From: Methylorubrum aminovorans
GTDB lineage: Bacteria; Pseudomonadota; Alphaproteobacteria; Rhizobiales; Beijerinckiaceae
NCBI RefSeq assembly: GCF_022179725.1
Contig: NZ_BPRC01000001.1
Coordinates: forward strand, 930,001-994,000
DNA length: 64,000 bases
Direction: 5' to 3'
In this document: piece by piece, positions 5,354 to 54,917 of the stretch
Numbering within the stretch: the first letter of the stretch is position 1
How the letters are laid out: each line of letters opens with the position of its first letter
Notes under the pieces: generated by a model
The model's database searches: none
What the model was told of the DNA's origin: nothing
The model's input: the letters and a program-made list of their open reading frames with translations, nothing else
Translations under genes and position numbers: made by a program

Positions 5354-6702
5354 GCAGCGAGCCGAACGACACGTCCGAGCGGGTCGTCTTTATCGACGAC
5401 GAGGAGGACGTGCGGCGTGCCAACCGGCAGAGTCTGGAACTCGACGGCTTCCGGGTCGAGACCTTCGAGGCGGCCGAGCCCGCGCTGGCGGCGATCCGGG
5501 CCGAGCCGCCGGGCGCGGTCGTCACCGACGTGCGCCTGCCGGGCATCGACGGGCGCGCCCTGTTCGAGCGGATCCGTGCCATGGACGCGGATCTGCCGGT
5601 GATCCTCATCACCGGCCACGGCGACATCTCGATGGCGGTGGCGGCGATGCGCGCGGGCGCCTACGATTTCCTGGCCAAGCCCTATCCGGCCGAGGCGCTG
5701 ATGGGCTCGGTGCGCCGCGCCCTCGATCGTCGCCGCCTCGTTCTGGAGAATCGCAGGCTCAACGCCCGGCTCGACGCAGCGATCGAGGAGGACCCCGCCT
5801 TCCTCGGCATCTCGCCGGAGATCGTCGCCCTGCGCCGCCTCGTACGCGATGTGGCGGGGGCCGACGTCGACGTGCTCGTGCTCGGCGAGACCGGCTCCGG
5901 CAAGGAGGTGGTGGCCAACGCCCTGCACCGCTGGAGCCGCCGCGCATCGAAGAACTTCGTCGCGATGAATTGCGGCGCGCTGCCCGACAGCGTGGTGGAG
6001 AGCGAGCTGTTCGGCCACGAGGCCGGCGCCTTCACGGGGGCGCTCAAGCGCCGGGTCGGGCGCATCGAGCACGCGCAGGGCGGCACGCTGTTCCTCGACG
6101 AGATCGAGAGCATGCCGCTGGCCCTGCAGGTGAAGCTGCTGCGGGTGCTGCAGGAGCGGGTGGTGGAGCCGCTGGGCACCAACGAGCGGCGCCCGGTCGA
6201 CATGCGGGTGGTCTCGGCCACCAAGGTCGATCTCGGCCAGGAGGCCGCCGCCGGCACCTTCCGCGACGATCTCTACCACCGGCTCAACGTCGTCACCGTC
6301 GTGATCCCGCCCCTGCGCGAGCGGCGCGAGGACATCCTGCTGCTGTTCCAGCACTTCCTGGCCCGCGCCGCCGCCCGGTTCGGACGCGAGGCGCCCCCCG
6401 TGACGGCGGCGATGCGCGACCACCTCCAGCGCCATACCTGGCCCGGCAACGTGCGCGAACTCGACCACTTCGCCGAGCGCTGCGCGCTGGGCCTGCCCGG
6501 ACAGGCCGTCCCGGAGGCCTCTCCGACCACGGCGCTGAGCCTGTCGGAGCAGGTCGAGCGGTTCGAGCGCGGCCTGATCCGTGAGGAGCTGATCATGGCC
6601 GGCGGCGACGTGCGGCTGGCCGCGGAATCCCTCGGCGTCCCACGGAAAACCCTCTACGACAAGATCGCCCGCTACGGCCTCACGCCGACCGATTTCCGCT
6701 GA
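5350..6702 (+). CDS. dctD: C4-dicarboxylate response regulator DctD (sigma-54 activator)
   Basis: 450-aa NtrC-family regulator. The receiver domain has the phospho-acceptor Asp60 (VVTDVRLPG) and the conserved Lys in FLAKPYP. The AAA+ domain has Walker A GETGSGKE (about 179-186), the sigma-54 contact loop GAFTGA (226-231), Walker [11 protein letters not shown] and the arginine-finger region. The C-terminus has a Fis-type helix-turn-helix ([18 protein letters not shown]). The ATG overlaps the dctB stop (ATGA), so the two are translationally coupled. It should activate dctA through the sites at 3423-3471. Confidence 0.96.
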
Positions 6703-6715
6703 TCGGCGGGGGCCG

Positions 6716-7777
6716 TCAGGCGACCGCCGCCTGCGGCGTCGGGCAGACGCGATCGCGGCCGGTCCGCTTGGCCTCGTAGAGCGCGCGGTCCGCCCGTTCG
6801 ATCACGTCGCGGGCGGCCTCGCCTGGCCGGACCTGCGCGACGCCGGCCGAGATCGTCACCTGGGCCACGACGTCGCCGGATCCGCGCTTGACCAGCCGCT
6901 GGGCGCGCAGGCGGCCGCAGATCTCCTGCGCGAGCGCGACCGCGGCCCCGATGCCGGCCTCGCCCAGCACGATCGCGAACTCTTCGCCGCCGTAGCGCGC
7001 GGCGAGGTCGCGGTCGGTCGTCTTCTCGCTGAGGAGACGACCAACCAGCCGCAGCACCTGATCACCGAAGCGGTGGCCATGCCGGTCGTTGAGACCTTTG
7101 AAATGGTCGATATCGAGCAGGAGCAGGGAGAACGTACTGCCGGCATCCGACCGGGTTCGGGCGATCGAATCGCGCAGGAAGCGGTCGAAGGCCTTGCGAT
7201 TGGCCAGCCCTGTCAGGGCATCGGTGGCCGCCTCGCGCCGCGTCTCGACGAGGTCCCGATGCAGCTTGGCAATGTGCCCGGCGGAGGTCGAGAGCTGCTC
7301 TTCGAGCAGCCGGTTGCGGCTCTGGGCCACCTCGGTCTCGCCGATCAGGGCGACGAGCGCCGTCATGAGTTCGTCGGCCGTCGGGCGGGCCGTGAGACGG
7401 CCGGACCAATGGGCCAGCACGTCGCCATATCCGGCCATCGCCTTCGAGCTGCCCGCGACCCGCTCCGCCAGCGCACCCGCCACCTCGGCCAGTTGGCCGA
7501 CCCCGTCGAGCATGCGCGCCTCCGTCGAGGTTCCGGCAATGCAGGCGTCGTAGAGCGAGTTCGCCTGCTCCTCCGTCAGTGCGCCGCCGGGTGCGAGACA
7601 GGGGGCGAGACGTTCCGCGAGCGGCGGGTTGGCGCCGCTGAAGAAGGCGTGCAGCAGTTCGTAGTTCCGGGGGGAGGGCGTCAACCCGTGCCGGGCGAGG
7701 GCCTCCCAGGCGCTGCGAGCGGAGGCCCATGCCGGGTCGCGGCTGTCATCCGCCCGCTTCTGCACCTGTCCCGGCAT
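6716..7777 (-). CDS. Diguanylate cyclase (GGDEF domain), cytoplasmic
   Basis: 353-aa protein predicted to make cyclic di-GMP from GTP. The N-terminal ~180 residues are helical with no membrane segment. The C-terminal GGDEF domain carries LTGLANRKAFD, LLDIDHFKGLND and an intact active site RYGGEEF. The RxxD product-inhibition site is not conserved (TTDRD at the place where R-x-x-D is expected). It converges on dctD with a 13-base gap. The ATG at 7777 is used; two GTG codons precede it in frame. The input signal is unknown. Confidence 0.9.
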   Translation of the reverse strand: MPGQVQKRADDSRDPAWASARSAWEALARHGLTPSPRNYELLHAFFSGANPPLAERLAPCLAPGGALTEEQANSLYDACIAGTSTEARMLDGVGQLAEVAGALAERVAGSSKAMAGYGDVLAHWSGRLTARPTADELMTALVALIGETEVAQSRNRLLEEQLSTSAGHIAKLHRDLVETRREAATDALTGLANRKAFDRFLRDSIARTRSDAGSTFSLLLLDIDHFKGLNDRHGHRFGDQVLRLVGRLLSEKTTDRDLAARYGGEEFAIVLGEAGIGAAVALAQEICGRLRAQRLVKRGSGDVVAQVTISAGVAQVRPGEAARDVIERADRALYEAKRTGRDRVCPTPQAAVA

Positions 7778-7918
7778 CACCACTCAAGCCCGGCCAACGA
7801 CGTATCGACCAGGCTGATACCCGTTTACTGTTAAATTTCAGTCTTGCGGCGCGTCGACCAACTTCTTTTTGCCAAGGACTTGCCCGGACGCCACACTCGA
7901 TTGAGTACCGAAAACGGA

Positions 7919-10918
7919 TCAGGCGACTGCCCGCCTCGTGACGAGGGCCCTGGCCTGCGGAGCCGGCACCGGCCTGCCGAGCAGAAAGCCCTGCGCCTCG
8001 GTGCAGCCCTTGCGCCGGACCCGCGCAAGCTGCTCCTCCGTCTCCACACCCTCGGCGGTGACGGTCATGCCGAGGCGCTCGCCCAGGCCGACCACGGCCC
8101 GGACCACCGCAGCCGCCTCAGGCTCGTCGATGTCGCGGATGAAGGAGCGATCGATCTTGATCTTGTCGAAGGGAAACCGGCACAGGTAGCTCAAGGATTA
8201 GTAGCCGGTGCCGAAATCGTCCAGCGCGATCCGCACGCCCATGCCGCGCAGGCGACGCAGGCAGCCGATGACGGCGTCCGAGTTCTGCATCAGCACGCTC
8301 TCGGTGATCTCCAGTTCCAGCCGTCCCGCCGGCAGGCCGGACGCGGCGAGCGCCCGCACCACGCTCTGCTCCAGTCCGGACTTGCGGAACTGCACCGCGG
8401 ACACGTTGACGGCGACCCGCCACTCGCCGGGCCAACCGGCCGCCTCACGGCAGGCCTCGTGCAGCGCCCAGGCGCCGAGCTGCGTGATGAGGCCGGTCTC
8501 CTCGGCGAGCGGAATGAATTCACCCGGGGAGACCGGACCATGCACCGGATGCTCCCAGCGTAGCAGCGCCTCGAAGCCCTTCGGGGCACCGTCCGAGAGG
8601 CCGAAGATCGGCTGGTAATGCAGCGCGAATCCGCCGGAGCGGATCGACTCGCGCATATCGTTCTCCAGCATGTTGCGGGTCGCGACGGCGAGATCCATGC
8701 CGCTCTCGTAGAACCGAACCGTGTTGCGCCCGGAATCCTTTGCCCGATAGAGGGCGATGTCGGCATTCTTGAACAAGGTGTCGACGCCGTCGCCGTGCCT
8801 CGGCCAGATCGCGACACCGATGCTGACCCCGACGGTGGTGGCGTGGCCGTCGAGATCGATCGATCGGCCGACGGCCTCGATCAGCCGCCGGGCAATCGCA
8901 GCGATGCGCCGGGGCTCGCCCCGCCCCGGCATGATGATGGCGAATTCGTCACCGCCGAGCCGGGCGACCACGTCGCCCTCGTGCAAGACCTCGCGCAGGC
9001 GCCGGGCGACGATGCAGAGCAGGGCGTCGCCGGCGGGATGGCCGAAGGTGTCGTTGACCGCCTTGAAGCGGTCGAGGTCGCAGCACAGCACCGCCACCTG
9101 ACCCGCGTTGCGCCGGGCCAGCGCGATCTCGCGGCTCAGCGTCTCTTGGAACAGCCGGCGGTTGGGCAGGCCGGTGAGCGCGTCGTGACGGGCCATGTGC
9201 TCGACCAGCGCCTGGGCGCGCTTGCGCTCGGTGGCGTCAGCGACGGTGCCCTCGATCCAGATCGGATGCCCCGCGGCGTCGCACACCACCCAGGCCGTCT
9301 CCGCGACCCAGATGCGCTCGCCGCCCGCGTGACGCCGAGCCTCGGAGACGAAGTCCTCGACGTGGCCTTCCTCGGTGAGACATTTCATGAAGGCCGCGTG
9401 CCGGCCCGGATCGACATACCAATCGTGGCTGAAATCCCCGAGCGGCCGCGTCGCGTCGCCGTAGCCGTGCAGTCGGGCGAGCGCCCGGTTGGCCTGCACG
9501 ATGCCGCCGTCGAGCCTGGCGCGGTAGACGCCGATCACCGCGTTCTGGAACAGCGATTGGTAATCGGCCTCGGCCGAGCGCAGCGCCGCCTCGCTCTGCC
9601 GGCGCGCGGTGAGGTCGGTGTAGGTGCAGACCAGGCCGCCGGAGGCCATGGGCGCGAGCCGCGTCTCCAAGATCGTGCCGTTGGGGTGGGTTCCCTCGTA
9701 GCTCTGGACCTCGAGCGGGAAGTCGCCCTGCTCCATCGCCGTCCGAGTCTCGGGGAACGCGCCGCCCTGCGCCAGGTGGTGCCACACCGCCGTGAAGGAA
9801 GCTCCCTCGTGCAGGACGTCCCGCGACAGTTCGAGAAGGTCGCGGGCGCGCTGGTTGAGGACCTGGACCCGCTTGTCGGGACCGATCATCACGAGGCCCT
9901 GATCCATCGCCTCGAGGGTGGCACGCATCGCCTCGCCGGTCTCGCGCAGGCGCTGCTCGGAGAGAGCCAACTCGGTCACGTCGAGGCAGACGCCGAAGAT
10001 CGAGACGAGCCGGCCCGCATCGTCGTGCTCTCCGACGCCGTGCACGGCCACCACCCGCACCGTGCCATCGGGACGCACGAGGCGGGAGCGATGCTCGTAG
10101 CCCCCGCCCAGCGTTTGGCTGCGCCCCGCAAGCGCCTCTTCGATCGCAGTCCGCACCCGCTCGAGATCGTCAGGATGATAGAAGCCGACATGCGTTTCGA
10201 GCGGCAGCATCGCGAGAGCGGCGTTGCGCCCGAAGATGCGGGCGATCCCGTCCGACCACGCGATGGTGCGGCTCGCGGCATCGATCCGCCAATGGCCGAA
10301 GGCGGCGATGTGCTCGGCCATGGCGTGGGAAGCCTCGATCGCGCGCAGCCGCGCCTCCCACTCGACCAGACGCAGCTCCGCATCCCGACGCTCGGCGGCC
10401 TCGGCCTCGGCGGCACGCCGGGCCTCGTCGAGCCAGAGATGGGCCTCGGCCACGAGCGCCAATTCGCGCAGCGCCTGCAACCGTTCGGGGCTGAGATCGT
10501 CCCGCGGCTCCCGGTCCATCAGGCAGAGCGTGCCGATGACACGGCCCGAGGTCGAGCCGATCGCGACCCCCGCGTAGAAGCGGGCATGAGTAGCACCGAC
10601 GACGAGCGGGCTTTGATCGAAACGGTCATCGCGGGTCAGGTCCGGAACGACGAGCGACTGACCTCGCTGCCGCCGGATCGTGTGATTGCAGAAGGCGGCC
10701 TCGCGGTCGATGCCGTCGTCCTCGATGCCGTAGCGGGCCCGGAACCGGAAGCGATCCTCGTCCACCAGAGTGACCAACGCCATCGGGACCGCAAAGATTT
10801 CGGCGGCGGAGCGGCACAGGAGATCGAGTTCACCTGCCAATCCGGCCCCGGACGATGCGTGCCGTTCGGGTGCCACGGCTCCGCAGTCGGTGGGCGGCAC
10901 CGGACGGCCTGCTGTCAT
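7919..10918 (-). pseudogene. GAF-PAS-PAS-PAS-GGDEF-EAL protein interrupted by an in-frame stop in EAL
   Basis: Composite cyclic di-GMP protein. The first part (10918 to 8198, 906 aa) has a GAF domain (about 30-165), three PAS domains (about 200-580), GGDEF (LTGLPNRRLF, RLGGDEF) and the first two thirds of EAL (GFEALLRWEHP, VNVSAVQF, ITESVLM, DDFGTGY). It then hits TAA at 8198-8200. The same frame continues at once with SLSYLCRFPFDKIKIDRSF, AEGVETEEQL and the rest of EAL to 7919. A serine codon (TCA to TAA) is the likely lost base. The fragment lacks the catalytic Lys and the last Glu of EAL, so phosphodiesterase activity should be lost; GGDEF could still work. A sequencing error is possible. 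Confidence 0.85.
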
Positions 10919-40784: not shown

Positions 40785-41348
40785 ATGTCCAGACCTTGGA
40801 TGCCCCTCTATGTCGCCGACTACTTGGCAGACACGGGCCACCTCACGACGGCGGAGCATGGCGCGTACCTGCTCCTCATCATGCACTACTGGAAGAACGG
40901 CGGGCTGCCCGACGACGACGGCAAGCTCGCTCGCATCGCCCGGTGCTCGGTGCGGGACTGGCTCGCGATGCGTCAGACGCTCTCCGAGTTCTTCGGCGAG
41001 GGCTGGACGCACGGGCGCATCGAACACGAGTTGGCCACGTCCCTAGCCGCGTACGAGCGGAGGGCACGGGCGGGTGCAAAGGGCGGCTCCCGAGGCGGTT
41101 CTGGGGGTGGCTCGAAGGGCAGCAATGCTGAAGCAATGCTTGAGCAATGCTCCAGCGAGACGGGAGCATTGCAGAAGCTATCACAACCACAGTCACAAGA
41201 TACTCCTAGCCGTAAGAAGGAACCTCCTAGGGCGAGGGATACCGGAACCGTTCAGGATAAGGCGCTGGGGGAAGCCTCACGCTCCTTCGCGGCTAGGGAC
41301 AGCTTCGATCACCCCCTCCGCCTCGTGCATGGTGGGGGCGCCCGATGA
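40785..41348 (+). CDS. DUF1376 (YdaU-like) replication-linked protein
   Basis: 187 aa. It opens with the family's MPLYVADYLADTGHLTTAEH (after MSRPW), then GAYLLLIMHYWKNGGLPDDD and an N-terminal winged-helix region (LARIARCSVRDWLAMR), as in YdaU/DUF1376 proteins found next to phage helicase loaders. The C-terminal half is Gly/Ser-rich and low-complexity. Probably helps start replication. ATG 40785 fits the family; frame opens upstream. Confidence 0.85.
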   Translation: MSRPWMPLYVADYLADTGHLTTAEHGAYLLLIMHYWKNGGLPDDDGKLARIARCSVRDWLAMRQTLSEFFGEGWTHGRIEHELATSLAAYERRARAGAKGGSRGGSGGGSKGSNAEAMLEQCSSETGALQKLSQPQSQDTPSRKKEPPRARDTGTVQDKALGEASRSFAARDSFDHPLRLVHGGGAR

Positions 41349-42838
41349 GCCGCACTCTTCACCCTCATCAGGTCAAGGCTCTCGACGGCCTCCGCTCATC
41401 GCTCATGGCCGGCTTCCGCCGCCCGATGCTCCAAGCCCCCACCGGCTTCGGCAAGACCGTCCTGGCCGGCGCGATCGTCAAAGGCGCCCGTGCCAAGGGC
41501 AAGCGCGTCCTGTTCGTCGTGCCCGCGATCAGCCTGATTGACCAGACGGTGCGATCGTTTTGGGCCGAGGGCATCACCGACATCGGCGTCATTCAGGGGC
41601 AGCACCCGATGACCCGGCCGGAGGCGCCGGTTCAGGTCGCGTCGATCCAGACGCTCCAGCGTCGGGCGATCCCGCCGTTCGACGTGGTGGTCGTGGACGA
41701 AGCGCACCGCTGGTTCGAGATGCTGGGCCAGTGGATGGCCGCCGAGACGTGGCAGAAGGTGCCCTTCATCGGCCTGTCCGCGACGCCTTGGACGCGCGGC
41801 CTCGGCAAGCACTACGACGACCTCATTCAGGTGACGACGACGGCCGAGTTGATCGAGGCCGGCTACCTCTCGCCGTTCCGGGTTTATGCGCCGTCGCATC
41901 CTGACCTTGGCAAGGTCCGCACCGTGGCCGGCGACTACCACGAGGGCGACCTTAGCGAGGCGATGAACAAGCCTGCCCTCGTTGCCGACGTGGTGACGAC
42001 GTGGCGCCAGCGCGGGGAGAACCGGCCGACCTTCGTGTTCGCCGTTGATCGCGCCCACGCCAAGCACCTGCAGGGCGAGTTCGAGAAGGCCGGCATCGGC
42101 TGCGGCTACATCGACGCTTACACGAAGCCCGACGAGCGGGAGGCGATGTTCCGCCGCTTCTCGGCTGGCGAGATGCGCGTGATTGCCAGCGTCGGGTGCC
42201 TGACGACGGGCGTGGATCTGGACGTGCGCTGCATTGTGCTCGCCCGGCCGACGAAATCCGAGATGCTGTACGTGCAGATCATCGGTCGCGGCCTGCGCAC
42301 GGCTCCCGGCAAGGCTGACTGCCTGATCCTCGACCACAGCGACACGACGCTTCGGATGGGGTTCGTCACGGACATCCACCACGACCACTTAGACGACGGT
42401 CGGGAGCGCCAGAAGGCCGAGCCCCGGCAGAAGCCGGAAGCCCTGCCGAAGGAGTGCTCTGCCTGCAACTTCCTCAAGCCGGCGAAGACCCCGAAGTGTC
42501 CCGCCTGTGGGTTCAAGCCCGAGCGTCAGAGCGAGATCGTCTGCGAGGACGGGCAGCTCGTGGAGATGACATCGGCCAAGGCCGTGGCGAAGGCAAAGAA
42601 GGAAACCGCTGAGCAGCAATTCATCTACGCGCAGTTGCTGCACTACGCCCGCCGCAAGGGGCACAAAACCGGGTGGGTCAATCACCGGTTCGAGGAGATG
42701 ACCGGCACGAAGGCGACCTATCGGCTGTGGGGGACGCCCGAGACTGAGCCGACCCCCTCCACGCTCTCGTGGATCAAATCTCGACAGATCGCATACGCCA
42801 AGCGCAGGAGGCCGTCCTATGCTGCCGCCGCTGAGTGA
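41345..42838 (+). CDS. DEAH-box helicase (superfamily 2)
   Basis: 497 aa. Motif I QAPTGFGKTVLAGAI (Walker A), motif II VVVDEAHRW (DEAH), motif III GLSATPWTRG, motif V ASVGCLTTGVDLD and motif VI QIIGRGLRTAPGKA are all present. A zinc-ribbon-like C-terminal part (CSACNFLKPAKTPKCPACGF) follows. Likely the replicative or recombination helicase of the phage. It overlaps neighbours on both sides (4 and 20 bases). Confidence 0.93.
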   Translation: MSRTLHPHQVKALDGLRSSLMAGFRRPMLQAPTGFGKTVLAGAIVKGARAKGKRVLFVVPAISLIDQTVRSFWAEGITDIGVIQGQHPMTRPEAPVQVASIQTLQRRAIPPFDVVVVDEAHRWFEMLGQWMAAETWQKVPFIGLSATPWTRGLGKHYDDLIQVTTTAELIEAGYLSPFRVYAPSHPDLGKVRTVAGDYHEGDLSEAMNKPALVADVVTTWRQRGENRPTFVFAVDRAHAKHLQGEFEKAGIGCGYIDAYTKPDEREAMFRRFSAGEMRVIASVGCLTTGVDLDVRCIVLARPTKSEMLYVQIIGRGLRTAPGKADCLILDHSDTTLRMGFVTDIHHDHLDDGRERQKAEPRQKPEALPKECSACNFLKPAKTPKCPACGFKPERQSEIVCEDGQLVEMTSAKAVAKAKKETAEQQFIYAQLLHYARRKGHKTGWVNHRFEEMTGTKATYRLWGTPETEPTPSTLSWIKSRQIAYAKRRRPSYAAAAE

Positions 42839-43757
42839 GCGCGCACGCGGCCGGTGGGCTGGCCTCCTGCCGCTGCTGGGCGTGGACAGCCGCTTCCTGT
42901 CTGGCCGCAAGAACGGCCCCTGTCCGATCTGCGGCGGCAAGACCCGCTTCCGCTTCGATGATCTGGAAGGCCGGGGCACCTGGATCTGCAACAACTGCGG
43001 GGCCGGCGATGGTGCCGACCTCGCGATGAAGGTGCTCGGCATCGACTTCAAGGAACTGGCTGAGCGGGTAGCCCCTCTGATCGGCGACGTTGAGCCTACA
43101 GCGCCAAAGAAGCCTCGGCCCGAGGCAGACACCCGGAAGGGCCTGAACGCCCTCTGGCGGGCCTCCAGAGCCGTTGAGCGAGGCGACCCGGTTTCCCGCT
43201 ACCTCGCCGCTCGGGTTGGCCTCGTCAACGTGCCCGACTGCCTGCGGACGGTGGAGCGCCTGCGGTATCAGGACGACAAGCCGTCGTTCCACCCCGGCAT
43301 GATCGCCAAGGTGGCCGCATTGGACGGGAGCGGGGTTCAGATCCACCGCACGTTCCTGACGACGGACGGACGCAAGGCGGACGTGGAAGCGCCCCGCCGT
43401 ATGATGCCCGGCCCGATCCCTGACGGCGCGGCGGTGCGCCTGTTCCCGCCCGGCGCCGTGCTCGGCATCGCGGAGGGTATCGAGACAGCGTTCGCCGCCG
43501 CGTCGCTGTTCGGCGTGCCCGTGTGGGCCGCCCTCAATTCCGTGATGCTCGTGAAGTGGGAGCCGCCACCCGGTGTCGAGGAGGTCGTGATCTTCGGCGA
43601 TGCGGACGAGAAGTTCGCCGGGCAGGCTGCGGCCTACACGCTGGCGAAGCGACTGCAACGCCCGTTGTTTACGGGCCGGGTGCGCGTCGAGATCCCCGAA
43701 ACCCTCGGCTCGGATTGGTGCGACGTGTTCAACGCTGGACGGAGGCAGGCCGCATGA
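42819..43757 (+). CDS. Phage primase/helicase, zinc + TOPRIM domains
   Basis: 312 aa. N-terminal zinc-finger of the T7/P4 primase type (CPICGGKTRFRFDD, GTWICNNCGAGDGADLAMKV), then a TOPRIM-like part (VLGIAEGIETAFAAASLFG, VVIFGDADEKFAGQAAA with the acidic residues). It has no helicase domain of its own; the DEAH protein upstream may fill that role. It makes RNA primers for replication. Confidence 0.88.
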   Translation: MLPPLSERARGRWAGLLPLLGVDSRFLSGRKNGPCPICGGKTRFRFDDLEGRGTWICNNCGAGDGADLAMKVLGIDFKELAERVAPLIGDVEPTAPKKPRPEADTRKGLNALWRASRAVERGDPVSRYLAARVGLVNVPDCLRTVERLRYQDDKPSFHPGMIAKVAALDGSGVQIHRTFLTTDGRKADVEAPRRMMPGPIPDGAAVRLFPPGAVLGIAEGIETAFAAASLFGVPVWAALNSVMLVKWEPPPGVEEVVIFGDADEKFAGQAAAYTLAKRLQRPLFTGRVRVEIPETLGSDWCDVFNAGRRQAA

Positions 43758-44595: not shown

Positions 44596-44880
44596 ATGGA
44601 CGTGCCGATTGAAGCGATCGACCGGGCGAACCGTCTCACCGAAGAGGAAATTGCCGAGCGGGCAAGCCTCGTTTCGGAAGCCCTGCTCATCTTGCTTGAG
44701 GGTCGCCCGAGCGTCGTCGCGGCCGATGCCTGCCTTCGTGCCGCGGCTGAACTGATCGTCACAGAGCCAGATGACGGCGTGACCGTCGAAGAGGCCGTGT
44801 CGTCTGCGGTGAAGGTGCTGCGCGCCTACGTCGAAGACATCCAGAGCGATCTGGCCGCCTCTCACAGCCATCGCCCGTAG
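44596..44880 (+). CDS. Phage hypothetical protein
   Basis: 94 aa, not recognised; acidic and helical (AIDRANRLTEEEIAERASLV, AVKVLRAYVEDIQSDLA). Strong GGAGGAAAG ribosome site, the same spacing pattern as the next gene. Confidence 0.65.
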   Translation: MDVPIEAIDRANRLTEEEIAERASLVSEALLILLEGRPSVVAADACLRAAAELIVTEPDDGVTVEEAVSSAVKVLRAYVEDIQSDLAASHSHRP

Positions 44881-44898
44881 CGCTCGAAGGAAGCCGCC

Positions 44899-45594
44899 AT
44901 GACCAACAAGGAACGCCAAGCCCTCCGCCGAGCCGCTGCCCGCCAGAAGGCTCAGAAACGGCGCGTGAGGCGCAAAGTGGCCGTCAGCATGCAGTCGGTG
45001 CGGTCAGGGGCCTATTTGGCCGCCAGGGAGCCCCAGGATCGATTTATCGTGGACCCTGATCGGACATGGTACGTTGTTCGCGCGCTTCCGCGCCGTGCAT
45101 CGTGGGCGGCGGAGCAGATTGCGGCGGTGGGTATCCCTGTCTTCGAGGCTCGCGAGGCAGTGCGGCTCGTGTCCGAGATCGGCAAGACGCGGACGGCTCT
45201 GATCCCGGTTCTGCGGCGCCTGCTGTTCGTCGGCGTGCACAACTGGCAGGAGTTGAAGAAGGCCGAGGAGCACCCCGGCGTCTACGACGATCGCACGGGC
45301 TTCGGCTGGCGCGGCACAGTCGATGCGCCCGGCGGTGGTCGCATGGTGATCTCAGCCGCGGAGCTTCAGAATTTCGCCGACTGTATCACTGGCTATGGCG
45401 GGGACATCGAAGAAGCCCGGCGCATCCTGTTCAAGGTCGGCGATGACGTGATTGTCGGTGAAGGCGCTTTTGCTGATCAGGCCGGCGTCGTGCGGCGCGT
45501 GGACGATAGAACGGGCCGTCTGAAGGTCGGCGTTCCTTTCGGCGGCGGCGAGGTGACTGTCGATGTCCATGAACAATCTGTAAAAGCCGCTTGA
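44899..45594 (+). CDS. NusG/RfaH-like transcription factor
   Basis: 231 aa. After a basic 50-residue tail (RRVRRKVAVSMQSVRSG) comes an NGN-like domain: WYVVRALPRRASWAAEQIAA (Trp-Tyr-Val-Val-Arg start), IPVFEAREAVRLV, and RRLLFVGVHNW (the basic-to-FVG step that touches RNA polymerase). A KOW domain ends the protein: FKVGDDVIVGEGAFADQAGV, then VPFGGGEVTVDVHEQSV. It is the last gene before a 537-base leader and the virion operon, the place of an antiterminator (lambda Q). Role inferred; the domain call is firm. Confidence 0.85.
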   Translation: MTNKERQALRRAAARQKAQKRRVRRKVAVSMQSVRSGAYLAAREPQDRFIVDPDRTWYVVRALPRRASWAAEQIAAVGIPVFEAREAVRLVSEIGKTRTALIPVLRRLLFVGVHNWQELKKAEEHPGVYDDRTGFGWRGTVDAPGGGRMVISAAELQNFADCITGYGGDIEEARRILFKVGDDVIVGEGAFADQAGVVRRVDDRTGRLKVGVPFGGGEVTVDVHEQSVKAA

Positions 45595-45618
45595 CTTTCG
45601 CGCGCGGGCGCGTAGTTT
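45591..45618 (+). promoter_or_regulatory. Putative late promoter overlapping the nusG-like stop
   Basis: TTGACT (45591-45596) and TAGTTT (45613-45618) with a 16-base spacer; the TGA of the nusG-like gene lies inside the -35 box. Its position at the head of the gene-free leader makes it the likely start of the virion operon. Confidence 0.6.
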
Positions 45619-46131
45619 CGTCTTCCGTAGACGTTCAGGCCGGTCCTCCGCCCACTGCTACGGGCGAAAGTTGACAACCGAGCGTCCAGCCATCGAGCCG
45701 CCCTCCAAGAGGGTCGCTCGTTCGGCAAGTCCTTGTCATGCGCTGCGCGGGCGCCTCAGCAAGGCTGAATTTCAGAGCTTGGTGCGGTCGCAGGAAGGCT
45801 AGGGCCTGCTCACGACCCAAGGGCTCAGCGCCGGACTTGTCCGGGTCGCTCGGGTTGAGCCAAGCGGACGACAGCGCTCCGCCCGCACCAATCCCCATCC
45901 GCCCAGGCTCCGGTCAGCGTCTCAAGCTGCCAAGCCTTTTTGCACACCGATGCCTGACGGCTTGGGCGGGGCACTTTCGATGCGGGGCCAAGCCGGAGAG
46001 CGGTGTCCGGACGCTGCTCTCACGAGGGCCAGAGCAGGCTTATAGGCCGGGTACGCGGCGCCACCGCGTGAGCCACTAGGGTGACTGGTGAAGACCGGCC
46101 CGCATCGAAGCCCTCTCGCAGGATCGCCGCC
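45619..46131 (+). other. Long structured leader, no gene seen
   Basis: About 510 bases between the promoter and the first small gene of the virion operon. Short frames on both strands have weak coding character. It contains hairpins CCCTC-CAA-GAGGG (45701-45713) and CCGGAC-TT-GTCCGG (45831-45844) and the attenuator-like element at 45905-45965. It resembles a phage late leader that an antiterminator must read through. Confidence 0.6.
45905..45965 (+). terminator. Candidate attenuator: terminator with competing hairpin
   Basis: Terminator form: AGGCT (45905-45909) pairs with AGCCT (45933-45937), inner stem CAGC/GCTG, followed by TTTTT (45937-45941). Alternative form: CCAAGCC (45930-45936) pairs with GGCTTGG (45959-45965), 7 bp, which would use up the terminator's 3' arm. 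A weak stem, so the call is tentative. Confidence 0.45.
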
Positions 46132-46281
46132 ATGCTCCTGACCATCCTGCTCGTGTTGCTCATCCTCGCCGTGTTCGGCGGCGGCAACTTCGGCTGGGGC
46201 GGCGCCTATGCCGGCCACGGCAACATCCTCGGCCTCGTGCTGCTGGTCGTCCTCGTGGTCGTGCTGGTGAGGGGCGTTTGA
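46132..46281 (+). CDS. Small membrane protein (DUF3309-like)
   Basis: 49 aa. Two hydrophobic stretches (LLTILLVLLILAVFGGG and NILGLVLLVVLVVVLVRGV) around a Gly/Trp-rich turn (GNFGWGGAYAGHG), the layout of DUF3309 proteins. The ATG at 46132 follows AGGATCGCCGCC. First gene of the late transcript; a holin-like role is only a possibility. Confidence 0.65.
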   Translation: MLLTILLVLLILAVFGGGNFGWGGAYAGHGNILGLVLLVVLVVVLVRGV

Positions 46282-46499
46282 TGGGCCGTTTTGTCGTGGA
46301 GCGTCGCTCGCTCATCGCGTCATTCTCGCCGGGCCTTGCGGATCAGTACCGCCATCCGAACGGCACGCTCATGACGGTTCGCCGAGCGGTGATCTGGCGA
46401 AAGGATGCCGATGCTGCGGCTTGGGCGAGCGAAAACGGTTACGCGCCGCTCGGCTTGAAGCTGTCGCTCTGGGCCGAACAGGGCTGCTGGCCTGCATGA
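46281..46499 (+). CDS. Phage hypothetical protein
   Basis: 72 aa, not recognised (RRSLIASFSPGLADQYRHPN, AAAWASENGYAPLGLK). ATG overlaps the previous stop by one base (TGATG). Confidence 0.6.
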   Translation: MGRFVVERRSLIASFSPGLADQYRHPNGTLMTVRRAVIWRKDADAAAWASENGYAPLGLKLSLWAEQGCWPA

Positions 46500-46627
46500 C
46501 CGAAGCCGACCGCCGCCTCACCTCCCGCATCGCTCGCGACCACGGCCTCACGGAACAAGCTCTCATTAAGGCCGCGAGAGAGCAGAAGCGGAAGCCGAAG
46601 GGCGATCGACACAGCGTTGGAGAATGA
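46496..46627 (+). CDS. Small phage protein (43 aa)
   Basis: MTEADRRLTSRIARDHGLTE then a Lys/Arg tail; possibly a small HTH. Overlaps both neighbours by ATGA. Confidence 0.55.
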   Translation: MTEADRRLTSRIARDHGLTEQALIKAAREQKRKPKGDRHSVGE

Positions 46628-48201: not shown

Positions 48202-48774
48202 GTGCCAGTTCTCTCCAACCCGAGGCATGAGCGGTTTGCTCAAGAGCTAGCGAAGGGTAAGAGCGCGTCCGCTGCCTATGCCGCCGCAGGGTACGAAGGC
48301 GATCGCCACAACGCCTCTCGGCTGGCAACAAATGACAACATTGCCGATCGTGTCGAGGAGCTGCTTGAGGCCGGCGCCAAGCGCGCGGAAGTGACGATTG
48401 AGATGGTCGTGCGCGAGTACAAGCGCATCGCCTTCTCCGACATCCGCCGGGCTGTGAACTGGCACGCTCTGACGACCGAGACCAACGAGGAAGACGAAGA
48501 CGGCATCCCGAAGACGCAGACCGTCAACGAGGTTGCCTTGGTCGGTAGCGACGAGATCGACCGCGACACCGCCCGCGCCATCGCCGAGATCAGCCAGACC
48601 AAGGAAGGCGCGCTGAAGGTCAAGTTCCACGACAAGAAGGGCGCGCTTGATAGCATCGCGCGTCATCTCGGCATGTTCGTGGACCGCTCCGAGATCACGC
48701 AGACTGTTCGTGAAATCACCGATGAGCCTGTCAGCGCAGACCAGTGGGCCGAGCGGCACGTCACGGAGCACTAG
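48202..48774 (+). CDS. Terminase small subunit
   Basis: 190 aa. Terminase_2-type DNA-recognition half: HERFAQELAKGKSASAAYAA, then EVTIEMVVREYKRIAFSDIR and a C-terminal helical region ending WAERHVTEH. It selects phage DNA for packaging with the large subunit, whose start it overlaps by 53 bases. GTG start at 48202. Confidence 0.9.
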   Translation: MPVLSNPRHERFAQELAKGKSASAAYAAAGYEGDRHNASRLATNDNIADRVEELLEAGAKRAEVTIEMVVREYKRIAFSDIRRAVNWHALTTETNEEDEDGIPKTQTVNEVALVGSDEIDRDTARAIAEISQTKEGALKVKFHDKKGALDSIARHLGMFVDRSEITQTVREITDEPVSADQWAERHVTEH

Positions 48775-50245
48775 CCCCGTCGAGTACGTCTGGAGGCCAC
48801 AGGCTGGCCCTCAGAAGGCGTTGGTGGATTGCCCCTTGCCGGAGATCTTCTTCGGTGGCGCCCGCGGCGGTGGAAAGACGGACGGTGTTCTCGGCAAGTG
48901 GGCTCTGAAGGAGCGGCGCTACGGCGCGCACTTCAACGCCCGCATGTTCCGCAAGGCGACGACCACCTCCGAGGACGCAATCGAGCGCGCCAAGGAGATC
49001 TTCGTCCCGCTCGGCGCCAAGTTCAACGAGTCCAAGCTGACGTTCCGCATGCCGCATGGTGGCCGCGTGGCGTTCGGCTATCTCGACGGCGAGAAGGACG
49101 CCGAGGCCCAACAGGGCAAGAACCTCACCGACGTGTGGATTGAGGAAGCGGGCCAGTACGCGCAGCCGACAGCGATCGACAAGCTGTTCGGCGCGCTCCG
49201 ATCCTCGCACGGCGTGCCGGTGCAGATGATCCTCACCGCCAACCCTGGCGGCGCTGGCCAAGGCTGGATCAGAGAGCGCTACAAGCTAGTCCCGTTCCCG
49301 ATGGGGCCGAAGCTCGTTGAGCGCGTCTTGCCTGACGGCTCGGTGCACAAGATGGCCGTGATCCCGTCCCGGCTGTCGGACAATCGCATCCTGATCGACA
49401 GCGACCCGCTCTACGCCTCGCGCTTGCAGCTCACGGGCGGCGCCAAACTCGTCAAGGCGTGGCTCGGCGGCGATTGGTCGAGTGTCGAGGGCGCGTTCTT
49501 CGATGAATGGGATGAGGCGAAGCATGTCGTTGCGCCGTTTGCGATCCCGTCTGACTGGCTCCGTTTCCGCTCTATGGACTGGGGTAGCGCCAAGCCTTTC
49601 AGCGTCGGATGGTGGGTCATCGCCGGCGATGACACGAGAATACCTCGACTGGATGGTGTGGAAGGAACTCGCACGATCCCCCGAGGCGCAATGGTGCGCT
49701 ATCGCGAGTGGTATGGCTGTAAGCCCGGTCAGGCCAACGCCGGGCTCAAGCTCACGGCAGAGCAGGTTGCCGATGGCATCGCGAGCCGGGAAGCAAACGA
49801 GCGTATCGCTTATGGCGTCCTCGACCCTGCGGCCTTCGCCGAGGATGGCGGGCCTTCGATCGCTCAACGGATGCAGCGGTGGAGTGATCCTGGCCGCGGT
49901 CTGAAGGGGCCAGCGTTCCGAGAGGCCGACAACAAGCGCGTGCCGCGAGCCGGTGCAATGGGCGGTTGGGACGCGATGCGCCAACGCCTCATCGGCGAGG
50001 CCGAGCGCCCTATGCTCTACGTGTTCTCGACCTGCCGCGACTTCATCCGCACCGTGCCGATGATCCAGCACGATACGAGCCGGCCGGAAGACCTCGACAC
50101 GGACGCCGAGGATCACGTCGCGGACGAGGCTCGATACGGCTGCATGAGCCGCCCTTGGGTCGCAAAGGCTCCGGCCGCTGCGAAAGCAAAGTCCACCGGC
50201 TACGCGCCAATGGGCGGCGGCTCTGGCCGCTCTTGGAGAACGTGA
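48722..50245 (+). CDS. Terminase large subunit
   Basis: 507 aa packaging motor. ATPase part: Walker A FFGGARGGGKTDG (about 45-53), Walker B LTDVWIEEAGQ (136-145), coupling motif MILTANPGG. Nuclease part: acidic residues in RFRSMDWGSAKPFS, YGVLDPAAF and EDHVADEARYG. Full length for the family. The ATG at 48722 lies inside the small-subunit gene. Confidence 0.95.
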   Translation: MSLSAQTSGPSGTSRSTSPVEYVWRPQAGPQKALVDCPLPEIFFGGARGGGKTDGVLGKWALKERRYGAHFNARMFRKATTTSEDAIERAKEIFVPLGAKFNESKLTFRMPHGGRVAFGYLDGEKDAEAQQGKNLTDVWIEEAGQYAQPTAIDKLFGALRSSHGVPVQMILTANPGGAGQGWIRERYKLVPFPMGPKLVERVLPDGSVHKMAVIPSRLSDNRILIDSDPLYASRLQLTGGAKLVKAWLGGDWSSVEGAFFDEWDEAKHVVAPFAIPSDWLRFRSMDWGSAKPFSVGWWVIAGDDTRIPRLDGVEGTRTIPRGAMVRYREWYGCKPGQANAGLKLTAEQVADGIASREANERIAYGVLDPAAFAEDGGPSIAQRMQRWSDPGRGLKGPAFREADNKRVPRAGAMGGWDAMRQRLIGEAERPMLYVFSTCRDFIRTVPMIQHDTSRPEDLDTDAEDHVADEARYGCMSRPWVAKAPAAAKAKSTGYAPMGGGSGRSWRT

Positions 50246-50638: not shown

Positions 50639-52591
50639 ATGGCCGTTTCGCCCGCCCCTTCCTCTGCGCCCCTGACGCCTCCCGGCGGCTATGGCGCCGT
50701 GCTGCCGCCGACCGGCGTTGCCGTGGTGGAGCCGGAGGTTGTCCGCGGGGAAGACAAGGGCGAAAGCCTCCACACGCTCAAGAAGTGGTTCGACGCCTAT
50801 CAGGAGACGAAGCGCGACGAGATGCTGGAGCAGCAGCAGGCTCGCCGCTACTATCACGGCGCCCAGTGGACCGACGAAGAACGCCGCGTTCTCAACGACC
50901 GCAACCAGCCGCCGGTCACGAACAACCGCATCTCGCTCAAGATCGACGGCATCGTCGGTGTTGTGGAGCGTCTGCGCCAAGACCCGAAGGCGCAGGCCCG
51001 GCATCAGGCACACGCAGCCGGCGCCGAGATCGGCACGGCCGCCGTGCGCGAAGTGTTGGACGCCAACGCATGGGACAGCCTGTCGTCGCAGATCGCGCAG
51101 GATCTGGCCATTGACGGCCTCGGCGGGCTAGAGCGCGACATCGAGACGGATATCGACGGCCAGCCGAACATCGTGCTGCGCCGCGTCGCGCCGGAGACGT
51201 TCTTCTACGATCCGCGCAGCGTGAAGGCTGACTTCTCGGACGCCCGCTATCAGGGCGTCTACAAGTGGATGGACCTCGACGCCGCGATCGAGATGCTTCC
51301 CGAGAAGGAAGCGGATCTGAAGGCAGCCGTCGATAAGTCGCCCGCCGGTTCGTTCGGTCTACAGGACTGGGAAAAGCTCTGGTACGACACGCGGCTCAAG
51401 CGCGTGAAGGTCGTGGAAGTCTGGTACAAGTTCCGCGGCGGCTGGCGCTTCGCCCTGCACACGGGCGACATCGTGCTCGCCGAGGGTGAGAGCCCGTTCC
51501 GTGATCGCCGCGGTAAGGCCCGCTGCCGATACAACATGGCCTCGGCTGGTGTGGATCAGGACGGCGACCGCTACGGCTTCGTCCGCAACATGAAGTCGCC
51601 TCAGGACGAGATCAACCACCGCCGCTCCAAGCTGCTGCACATCCTCAACACCAATCAGGTGATCTACGAGGAAGGCGCCGTTGACGACATCGAGGAGAGC
51701 CGGCGTCAGCTCGCTCGCCCCGATGGTGCGATCAAGGTCAATCCCGGCCAGCCGCGTTTCGAGATCCGCGACCTTCAGATCCAGCTTCAGGGACAGGCCC
51801 AGCTTCTCCAAGAGGCGAAGGCCGAGATCGACAACTTCGGTCCCACGCCCGCCCTTCTCGGCTCGGGACCGGGCTCGCAGTCGGGCCGTGCCCAGGCCAT
51901 GCAGCAGCAGGCCGGCATCGCGCAACTCGGCCCCTACTTCGGTCGCTACAAGGCTTGGAAGATCGACCTGTATCGCGACCTGTGGTTCGACATTCAGCAG
52001 TTCTGGACGGACGAGCGCTTCATCCGCGTGTCGGGTCCGAACGAGCTAGAATTCCTGCCGATCAACCAGATGGTGATGACGCCGGAAGGCCCGCGCATCG
52101 CCAACGCCATCGGCGAACTCGACCTCGACATGGTGATGGACGAAGGCCCAGACACGGTGACGCTGAACGAAGACACCATGCAGGTGCTCGACAGCATGAT
52201 CCAGAAGGGGCTCATCGCTGGCCCTGGAGCCCTGCCGCTGGTGGCGGAGGTGGCGAACCTCACGCCGTCCGTTCGCCAGAAGCTTGCGGCGATGAACCAG
52301 CCCCCGCAGCCCGATCCGCAGGCACTCGCCATGCAGCAGGCCGCGCAGCAGCTTCAGTTCGCCGACGCTCAGGCCAAGGTGCGCAAGACCAACGCCGAAG
52401 CCGACCGCGCTCAGGCTGATGCCATGTCGAAGATGGCGACGCTGAACGAGGCGGACGCTGTAGGCGAGGCCAAGGCCATCACGGAGATGGCGCACATGCA
52501 GGCCCGCACGCGTCAGATCAACCAGCAGACCGCACAGGCGACGATGGCGCCGCTCGGGATGCCGGCGATGACGGCTCAGGCCAGCTTCTAA
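50639..52591 (+). CDS. Portal protein, P22-type
   Basis: 650 aa. Follows P22 gp1-like portals: ETKRDEMLEQQQARRYYHGA, QWTDEERRVLNDRNQPPVTN, IDGIVGVVERLRQDPKA, and the RNMKSPQDEINHRRSKLLHI crown region. A helical barrel-like C-terminus is rich in Gln/Ala (QQAAQQLQFADAQAKVRKTN). It forms the DNA entry ring. Starts one base after the secreted gene's stop. Confidence 0.9.
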   Translation: MAVSPAPSSAPLTPPGGYGAVLPPTGVAVVEPEVVRGEDKGESLHTLKKWFDAYQETKRDEMLEQQQARRYYHGAQWTDEERRVLNDRNQPPVTNNRISLKIDGIVGVVERLRQDPKAQARHQAHAAGAEIGTAAVREVLDANAWDSLSSQIAQDLAIDGLGGLERDIETDIDGQPNIVLRRVAPETFFYDPRSVKADFSDARYQGVYKWMDLDAAIEMLPEKEADLKAAVDKSPAGSFGLQDWEKLWYDTRLKRVKVVEVWYKFRGGWRFALHTGDIVLAEGESPFRDRRGKARCRYNMASAGVDQDGDRYGFVRNMKSPQDEINHRRSKLLHILNTNQVIYEEGAVDDIEESRRQLARPDGAIKVNPGQPRFEIRDLQIQLQGQAQLLQEAKAEIDNFGPTPALLGSGPGSQSGRAQAMQQQAGIAQLGPYFGRYKAWKIDLYRDLWFDIQQFWTDERFIRVSGPNELEFLPINQMVMTPEGPRIANAIGELDLDMVMDEGPDTVTLNEDTMQVLDSMIQKGLIAGPGALPLVAEVANLTPSVRQKLAAMNQPPQPDPQALAMQQAAQQLQFADAQAKVRKTNAEADRAQADAMSKMATLNEADAVGEAKAITEMAHMQARTRQINQQTAQATMAPLGMPAMTAQASF

Positions 52592-53765: not shown

Positions 53766-54917
53766 ATGGCCGTCACCAACACCCCCTCCACTCTGGAAAT
53801 CCAGAAGTGGCGCCGCGACTTCTTCACGGAGTGGCAGCGCGAGAACCTGTTCGCCCCCTACATCGGCAACGGCACCGACGCCGTGATCCAGCGCATCTAC
53901 GAGCTACGCGACGAGGGCGAGCAGATCACCATCCCGATCGTGGGCCGTCTCACCGGCTCGGGTCAGGTCGGCGCCAACACGCTGACCGGCAACGAAGAGC
54001 AGATGGACCAGTACGGCCACAAGATCGTGATCGACTGGGCTCGTCATGCCGTACTGCTGAACAAGAAGGAGATGCGCAAGTCGGCCATCGACCAGATGGG
54101 TGCCGTGCGTCCGCTCCTGAACGACTGGGCCGCCGCCAAGCTCCGCGACGACTTCGTGCGGGCGTTCGGCACCATCCAGCCGTTCGGCACCGCGTCGAGC
54201 CTGAGCGGCAATGTGCAGGGCATTCCGATGATCTCGGCGACCCCGGCGCAGCTCAATGCGTGGCTGACCGGAAATGCTGATCGCGTGCAGTTCGGCAATG
54301 GGCAGGCAACGCTCGTCGCCGGCAATTTCGCGGCCTCGCTCTTGAACGTGGACTCGACCAACGACCTCGCCACGGTTGCCGCGTTCAGCCGCATCAAGCG
54401 GATCGCCAAGAACGCCGATCCGAAGATCCGCCCCCTGCGGGTAGAGGACGGCCGCGAGTACTTCGTCACCTTCCTAGCCTCCGGCCCGTTCGCCGATCTG
54501 GCGCGCGACCCGGCCATGCTCTCGGCCAACACCAACGCCCGCGCCCGTGAGGGCTCCGGCATGGACAAGAATCCGCTGTTCCAGGACGGCGACCTCATGC
54601 TCCAGGGCATGATCTACCGCGAGGTGCCGGAACTGAGCCAACTCGTGCTCAAGGGCGCGGGCGCTGGCGGCGTGGACGTGTACCCCTCGTTCACCTGCGG
54701 CCAGCAGGCGATGGGCTACGCGATCGGCCAGCTCCCGGCTCCGACGACCCGGAACGATGACGACTACGGCTTCATCAAGGGCCGTGGTGTCGAGACCTGC
54801 TACGGCATCTCGAAGATCGTCAAGGGCCGCAACGCTGCGACCGCCAGCGTCGCTGCGGGCACCAACGCCGACTGGGGCGTGGTCACGTCGTTCTTCGCGA
54901 CCGCCTCCGCCAACTGA
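53766..54917 (+). CDS. Major capsid protein, N4 gp56 type
   Basis: 383 aa. Match to the N4_gp56 coat family: EITIPIVGRLTG-like EQITIPIVGRLTGSGQVGAN, GNEEQMDQYGHKIVIDWARH, and LNKKEMRKSAIDQMGAVRPL, then HK97-like body. It should build the shell. The gene is followed by a 61-base gap with a GC-rich hairpin. Confidence 0.9.
   Translation: MAVTNTPSTLEIQKWRRDFFTEWQRENLFAPYIGNGTDAVIQRIYELRDEGEQITIPIVGRLTGSGQVGANTLTGNEEQMDQYGHKIVIDWARHAVLLNKKEMRKSAIDQMGAVRPLLNDWAAAKLRDDFVRAFGTIQPFGTASSLSGNVQGIPMISATPAQLNAWLTGNADRVQFGNGQATLVAGNFAASLLNVDSTNDLATVAAFSRIKRIAKNADPKIRPLRVEDGREYFVTFLASGPFADLARDPAMLSANTNARAREGSGMDKNPLFQDGDLMLQGMIYREVPELSQLVLKGAGAGGVDVYPSFTCGQQAMGYAIGQLPAPTTRNDDDYGFIKGRGVETCYGISKIVKGRNAATASVAAGTNADWGVVTSFFATASAN

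Follow-up and report, generated by a model that had tools for sequence, protein, structure and literature searches.

A NusG paralogue with its own leader RNA as a candidate late-gene antiterminator of Methylobacterium prophages

Introduction

Antitermination is a classic form of late control in phages. In phage lambda the gene of the antiterminator Q lies between the early and the late blocks of genes, with the late promoter behind it, and, to our knowledge, Q-type proteins are not paralogues of NusG, nor are AlpA and GafZ. What, then, is the function of a gene which occupies the same slot in a prophage and encodes a NusG-like protein? Such a gene, hereafter nusGL, is found in a 64,000-nucleotide stretch of Methylorubrum aminovorans DNA (the window; all positions refer to it unless a locus is named). 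An earlier note, made from the letters of the window, placed this gene as a late-gene antiterminator that could displace the host NusG and let the polymerase read through a terminator in the leader of the virion operon. Here we examine the protein, its position among relatives and the leader behind it, and propose that the factor acts through that leader as an RNA.

Results

The NusG paralogue

The 231-codon open reading frame at 44899-45594 (Table 1) encodes a real NusG/RfaH paralogue, which exists besides a separate NusG of the source genome's own (in L186; here and below, such numbers are our locus designations). Among the curated NCBIfam families UpxY is its best match (2.7e-10), and NusG is matched at 1.1e-5, both under the curated cut-offs: nusGL reaches 40.5 bits with UpxY NF033644 (cut-off 100), 25.4 bits with the housekeeping NusG TIGR00922 (cut-off 135.7), 20.8 bits with LoaP NF033641 (cut-off 125) and 12.3 bits with RfaH TIGR01955 (cut-off 144.5). 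PHROG 6386, annotated as "transcription antiterminator", matches residues 48-230 (7.5e-18), and the KOW domain of NusG in PDB sequences matches at 5e-5. The Pfam scores are weak (NusG 12.6 bits with a cut-off of 22.2, KOW 10.9 bits with a cut-off of 22.3), so the NGN and KOW domains, which the earlier note had called clear, are borne out by the profiles and the predicted fold and not by Pfam alone.

Structure prediction agrees with this assignment. In a Foldseek search with the AlphaFold2 model (10 sequences, mean pLDDT 76.7, pTM 0.58) structures of NusG were the best matches, and RfaH was within the first ten. The NGN part of the predicted model superimposes on the NGN domain of RfaH (8pen_P) with Z 11.9 and 2.2 A over 100 residues, and the modelled KOW part on the C-terminal domain of E. 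coli NusG (2jvv) with Z 9.1 and 2.3 A over 59 residues; an NGN fold followed by a KOW fold is the arrangement that defines the NusG/Spt5 superfamily. The KOW domain was modelled as a beta barrel and not as helices of the RfaH type, in a model that was built from 10 sequences only and has a pTM of 0.58.

The extra basic tail ahead of the NGN domain, also pointed out earlier, has 15 lysines and arginines in 47 residues and is modelled as a helix at residues 3-37. Among 69 related loci (see below) the tail could be read by motif search in 56, with a median of 35% lysine and arginine, at least two of the 56 being mis-registered, and no conserved tail ahead of the NGN start was found in the housekeeping NusG of four Methylobacterium genomes. 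As to the KOW domain, the IFGR motif, which presumably contacts S10/Rho, is lost from the window copy (45535-45549) and from L041, while the other aligned members share or nearly share it with NusG.

Table 1. Features of the nusGL region of the window
Feature	Position	Strand	Basis
DNA helicase, upstream replication block	41345..42838	+	PHROG profile
DNA primase	42819..43757	+	PHROG profile
nusGL, NusG/RfaH paralogue, 231 aa	44899..45594	+	ORF, NCBIfam/PHROG profiles, AlphaFold2 model
N-terminal extension of nusGL rich in arginine/lysine, aa 1-54, predicted helix 3-37	44899..45060	+	AlphaFold2 model, tail comparison
NGN domain of nusGL, about aa 55-125	45061..45273	+	AlphaFold2 model, structure match
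KOW domain of nusGL, about aa 178-231, modelled beta barrel	45430..45591	+	PDB sequence profile, AlphaFold2 model
Putative late promoter: TTGACT 45591-45596 across the stop codon, with TAGTTT 45613-45618 as a possible -10	45591..45618	+	Analogy with relatives
Putative divergent leader RNA: P1 45630-45636 with 45680-45686, hairpin 45648-45666, second hairpin 45689-45726	45625..45726	+	
Element 95.7% identical to the stretch behind nusGL in L041 and 73% in L132; TTTTT 45937-45941	45897..45988	+	Sequence comparison
Terminase small subunit (terS), first recognised virion gene past the leader	48202..48774	+	
Terminase large subunit (terL), PHROG 2	48647..50245	+	
Portal protein, PHROG 156	50639..52591	+	
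Major head protein (coat), PHROG 334	53766..54917	+	

Neighborhood and position among relatives

nusGL belongs to a Methylobacterium prophage, where it separates the replication genes from a P22-like virion operon. A helicase, a primase and a match to a pyrophosphatase family precede it, and it is followed by the leader, small open reading frames, terS, terL, the portal, coat and head-closure protein genes and a DNA-ejection match. The gene order given in the earlier note, in which nusGL is the last gene before a gene-free leader and the virion operon, thus holds in outline, but the recognised virion genes begin about 2.6 kb past nusGL and not where the leader ends, and a 113-codon open reading frame (45738-46079) spans the leader region. 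The sole significant match of this frame among the 69 loci is a stretch of 26 residues in L041, within the 45897-45988 element, and the leader of the window is likely to be gene-free. The surroundings of nusGL are those of a Q-like regulator: replication and virion blocks on its two sides, and behind it a leader and a promoter-like sequence, the latter recognised in the window by analogy only.

For comparison, 69 distinct nusGL loci were taken from Methylobacterium genomes and viral contigs after the removal of five duplicate loci. Profile rows that covered the KOW end only (housekeeping NusG) and two low-scoring partial rows were left out, and most of the weakest rows (below about 1e-41) among the 81 listed were not included as loci. 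A terminase, portal or head gene lies downstream on the same strand in 58 of the 61 loci with at least 5 kb of downstream sequence, which supports the earlier placement of a NusG paralogue in the slot of Q. In 51 of these loci it was found by tblastn with 14 probes, and in seven of the other ten (L136, L140, L143, L158, L160, L165, and L034) by PHROG; in L149, L028, and L029 PHROG revealed no packaging gene in the two open reading frames tested per locus. The best place of each tblastn probe was never upstream or antisense of nusGL, only 26 loci having 5 kb upstream. The large terminases downstream fall in at least four families (PHROG 2, 9, 15, and 38).

Among free phages and plasmids tblastn gave no match of the window protein, and two of its relatives, used as queries, retrieved from phages only distant NusG-like proteins, none covering 80%. 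At E 1e-25 the nusGL profile matched in two of 297 sampled genomes of the order, both within the genus. PHROG 6386 was tried as a family probe and rejected, as it also matches housekeeping NusG (216 of 240 genomes and 10 of 14 controls were matched). Within the family, one clade (L024, L027, L030, L031, L033, and relatives) has portals about 78-93% identical to that of L024 and occurs in many genomes; its inheritance looks vertical, and it may be a domesticated phage. In the 817-aa open reading frame of this clade the portal takes up the C-terminal half only.

Two classes of leader RNA

Directly 3' of nusGL many loci have one of two elements, the string of class A being present in 32 of the 69 loci and that of class B in 12, plus three recognised by eye. 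Class A consists of CAGG, a TATCC-like string, GACCCGGCCCACG and CGAGGC, in this order; class B of CTCTCC, GGAGACGG and CCGCTTCTCCAC. Both elements are structured RNAs whose pairs covary. A search of 16 loci against Rfam 15 found neither class, the matches being three tRNAs and one at chance level. The covariation score is 0.148 for 26 sequences of class A (0.069 +/- 0.012 after shuffling) and 0.246 for 15 sequences of class B (0.112 +/- 0.016), and none of 500 shuffles was as high in either class, the relatedness of the sequences inflating such tests. In both classes, slid structures score below the true register. Two weaker counts for class A, doubly changed pairs and pair types, were reached by 37 and 28 of 500 shuffles, respectively, and nine class A leaders, folded singly, show no unusual stability by energy (z -0.74 to 1.74). 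A pseudoknot in class B, considered by eye, was dropped for the RNAalifold structure.

A tree of the 69 proteins groups all 24 class B rows in a single clade (SH-aLRT 97), and one change is needed between A and B; the class of displaced leaders was assigned here from the model searches described below. Directly behind the leader and ahead of the packaging genes, L021, L035, and L136 have a tRNA gene with a CAT anticodon (identified by eye). Matches to the tRNA model occur at the same places in L002, L015, and L019, and a similar sequence was seen by eye in L040.

Searches with the RNA models

Covariance models of class A (R1) and class B (R2) were searched in 111 genomes without regard to nusGL, and the places found were then referred to the 81 nusGL rows among the matches listed. 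Of the 45 loci on which R1 was tried it had matched 37; L056 and L162, which are class A by sequence motif only, were missed at E 0.05. In the genomes it found 29 places (in 28 of the 111), 25 of them downstream of nusGL on the same strand (20 within 300 nt and five more within 6 kb). For R2, 34 places with E below 1e-9 were kept and the 19 weaker of the 53 rows dropped; 27 of the 34 are downstream of nusGL on the same strand (18 within 300 nt and nine more within 6 kb). None of the 63 places lies upstream or antisense of a listed nusGL row within 6 kb. Whether the gene is kept next to the leader in related phages had been set beforehand as a refuting test of the proposal, and the leader RNA proved to be paired with nusGL.

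The places without a nearby nusGL row, among those listed, are four for R1 and seven for R2. In three of the seven (L175, L176, and L179, the last at a contig start) a remnant with KOW is left upstream. Two of the R1 exceptions, L169 and L170, have TTGAC, the leader and the portal, with nusGL not near; their genomes keep nusGL elsewhere (L028 and L029), and the class A string is absent behind it. The other two, both in one genome, score 44.5 and 39.2 bits.

Viral contigs were also scanned for the leader patterns without regard to the protein. This yielded 35 candidates of class A, of which 20 reach at least 45 bits with R1 (19 of 34, and L044). nusGL is present upstream, within the stretch examined, in 18 of these 20. 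For the remaining two (L200 and L219) only a short piece of the contig was examined, and the gene is present in longer stretches of the same contigs (L059 and L048). It is also present with the variants L214 and L215 (23-24 bits with R1), and was not found with the class A candidates left over from the scan. As for class B, seven of the eight pattern matches score above 100 bits with R2, four of them with nusGL in the stretch examined. Many of the viral contigs are prophages already found by the protein, and the pattern scan therefore checks specificity more than it adds material.

Promoter and terminators

A TTGAC that starts 34-36 nt ahead of the first conserved base is present in 35 of 37 class A leaders (1.7 expected); 20 of the 37 are closely related members of a single clade, and outside this clade 15 of 17 have the TTGAC. 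Where the leader adjoins the gene, TTGAC often overlaps the stop codon of nusGL. This fixed spacing suggests that the class A leader probably begins the late transcript. In class B a comparable position is occupied by TTGC and a TAATAT-like string, as seen by eye and uncounted.

Intrinsic terminators follow the leader in five of 37 loci of class A (1.8 expected) and in two of 15 of class B (0.9 expected); a stricter scan of class A gave one of 37 against 1.0 expected, and the window has one terminator-like site against 1.2 expected. On the class A counts of 5/37 and 1/37 intrinsic terminators were rejected as a general part of the system, and the leader terminator that the earlier note had assumed finds no support in the window or in class A. 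Rho-dependent or pause-type stops may instead be the target.

The leader of the window

The window protein is placed in class A beside L041 and L132 (support 100), with 83% identity to L041. Its leader gives 3.8 bits with R1, which is no match, and the search of the whole window for a displaced leader gave at best 17.3 bits with R1 (E 0.16, inside terL) and 7.3 bits with R2. Rfam detects nothing in this leader, a consensus promoter scan of 44800-46600 found none, and in the 111 genomes the sequence does not recur beyond four short pieces. The fold has z -3.08 over 45625-45735 and z -1.58 over 45625-45690, the stretch having been picked after the fold was seen, and its hairpin is flanked by strings common to L041 and L132. 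We infer that the window has a diverged class A leader. Further downstream, the 92-bp element 45897-45988 is kept in L041 although the leader ahead of it differs.

Discussion

From the fold of the protein, its place ahead of the packaging operon, the pair of protein and leader kept across packaging types and the fixed TTGAC of class A, we infer that nusGL serves the prophage as antiterminator of its late genes and is loaded by way of its own leader RNA, with a place like that of Q and a mechanism like that of LoaP or RfaH (probability about 0.7). Transcription of the late operon would start at the leader, and the leader RNA, folded on leaving the polymerase, or else a paused complex at the leader, would recruit nusGL, perhaps via its arginine-rich tail. 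The NGN domain would then occupy the NusG site on the polymerase, and it is in this step that the host NusG may be displaced and the late genes brought under control, as the earlier note had it. The modified complex would ignore pause, Rho-dependent or intrinsic stops along the long late operon. The window copy would be one member of this system, with a diverged leader.

Parts of such a system are known from elsewhere. LoaP, a NusG paralogue of Bacillus, depends on a hairpin within the leader RNA at the 5' end of a long operon, according to passages of PMC12691694. The likeness lies in a NusG paralogue and a leader RNA beside a long operon (the dfn and mln leaders in the case of LoaP); nusGL differs in being found at phage late genes and not at polyketide operons, in its arginine-rich N-terminal tail, in its leader and in its score (20.8 against 125 bits). 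With RfaH, also a specialised paralogue, nusGL shares the NGN fold (Z 11.9), but it scores 12.3 against 144.5 bits, its KOW domain is modelled as a beta barrel rather than helices and it has a conserved RNA leader. UpxY antiterminators of Bacteroides, the best curated family match (2.7e-10, yet 40.5 against 100 bits), act on capsule operons. As for the antiterminators of phages and phage-like clusters, nusGL resembles Q in its slot between replication and virion blocks. AlpA is described as an antiterminator in PMC7969949, and passages of PMC11150451 describe GafZ of Caulobacter as the antiterminator of a gene transfer agent, a phage-like cluster, and lambda-type Q, AlpA and GafZ as loading through DNA elements near the promoter; the nusGL system, in contrast, has a NusG fold and a leader RNA. 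In the full-text literature, with subscription journals mostly outside its scope, we found neither a NusG paralogue as a phage late regulator nor Methylobacterium prophages with NusG or an antiterminator, and the passages seen of PMC7819879 and PMC6391919 describe no phage-encoded NusG paralogue. If the antiterminator reading is true, the late switch is built here differently from that of lambda Q, specialised NusG paralogues serve phages besides capsule and antibiotic operons, and the two classes provide natural cognate and non-cognate protein-RNA pairs for studying the recruitment of such factors.

One could also suppose that nusGL is a general take-over factor, which replaces the host NusG on the polymerase genome-wide, while the adjacent leader RNA does something else. 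The NusG fold, the NusG-like IFGR motif kept in most aligned members and the window itself, with no leader model match, would suit such a factor. However, each of the two distinct leader RNAs goes with its own part of the protein tree, and 25 of 29 and 27 of 34 blind leader matches are found downstream of nusGL, which makes this explanation unlikely. Alternatively, the same role could be reached by another route of recruitment, nusGL being a factor of the RfaH type whose recruitment depends on a DNA element, and the RNA structure being incidental. This would be in line with an NGN fold nearest to RfaH and with the presence in some class A leaders (L021, L022, and L044) of GGCGATAGCG, which we take to resemble the RfaH ops element; yet most other class A leaders, and that of the window, lack GGCGATAGCG, and both leader classes have compensatory pair changes, so that we hold recruitment by DNA to be quite unlikely.

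There is also a broader proposal, to which we would give somewhat less than even odds: that the prophages of the genus share an exchangeable late switch, in which a NusG paralogue with its own arginine-rich RNA-binding tail and its own promoter-fused leader RNA combines in one protein the jobs of lambda N (RNA binding) and NusG (polymerase binding), and which has arisen as two protein-RNA pairs, placed ahead of four terminase families. On the protein tree the leader class changes once (49 rows), and the packaging label 14 times on 51 labelled rows (mean of 20 shuffles 23.9), an upper figure, since the label mixes terminase and portal types. One change of leader class against up to 14 of packaging indicates that regulator and leader travel together while the virion module is exchanged, although plain linkage may account for the pairing between leader class and protein clade. 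The persistence of regulator and leader apart from each other in two genomes is as a trans-acting pair would allow. Finally, the leader could serve the virion module as a DNA site, for packaging (cos/pac) or otherwise, with nusGL merely hitch-hiking. Such a role would agree with the place of the leader before the terminase genes and with the 92-bp element shared with L041 further on, but is very improbable given a leader class that does not track terminase and portal type (one change against the upper figure of 14), covarying RNA pairs and TTGAC at a fixed spacing.

In 13 loci 0.6-4.9 kb separate nusGL from the leader, and the open reading frames of this gap encode RTX proteins, an IS110-type transposase, a lipase and a rhodopsin with a carotene dioxygenase. 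Such cargo is expected if late transcription begins at the leader rather than at the gene. The RTX calcium-binding repeat proteins are encoded at L138:8890-10038, L150:8812-9942, and L154:7057-10155. In L139 the interval between nusGL and a displaced class B leader contains genes for a bacteriorhodopsin-like protein and a beta-carotene dioxygenase (6215-7974, minus strand), a case of rhodopsin cargo in a prophage.
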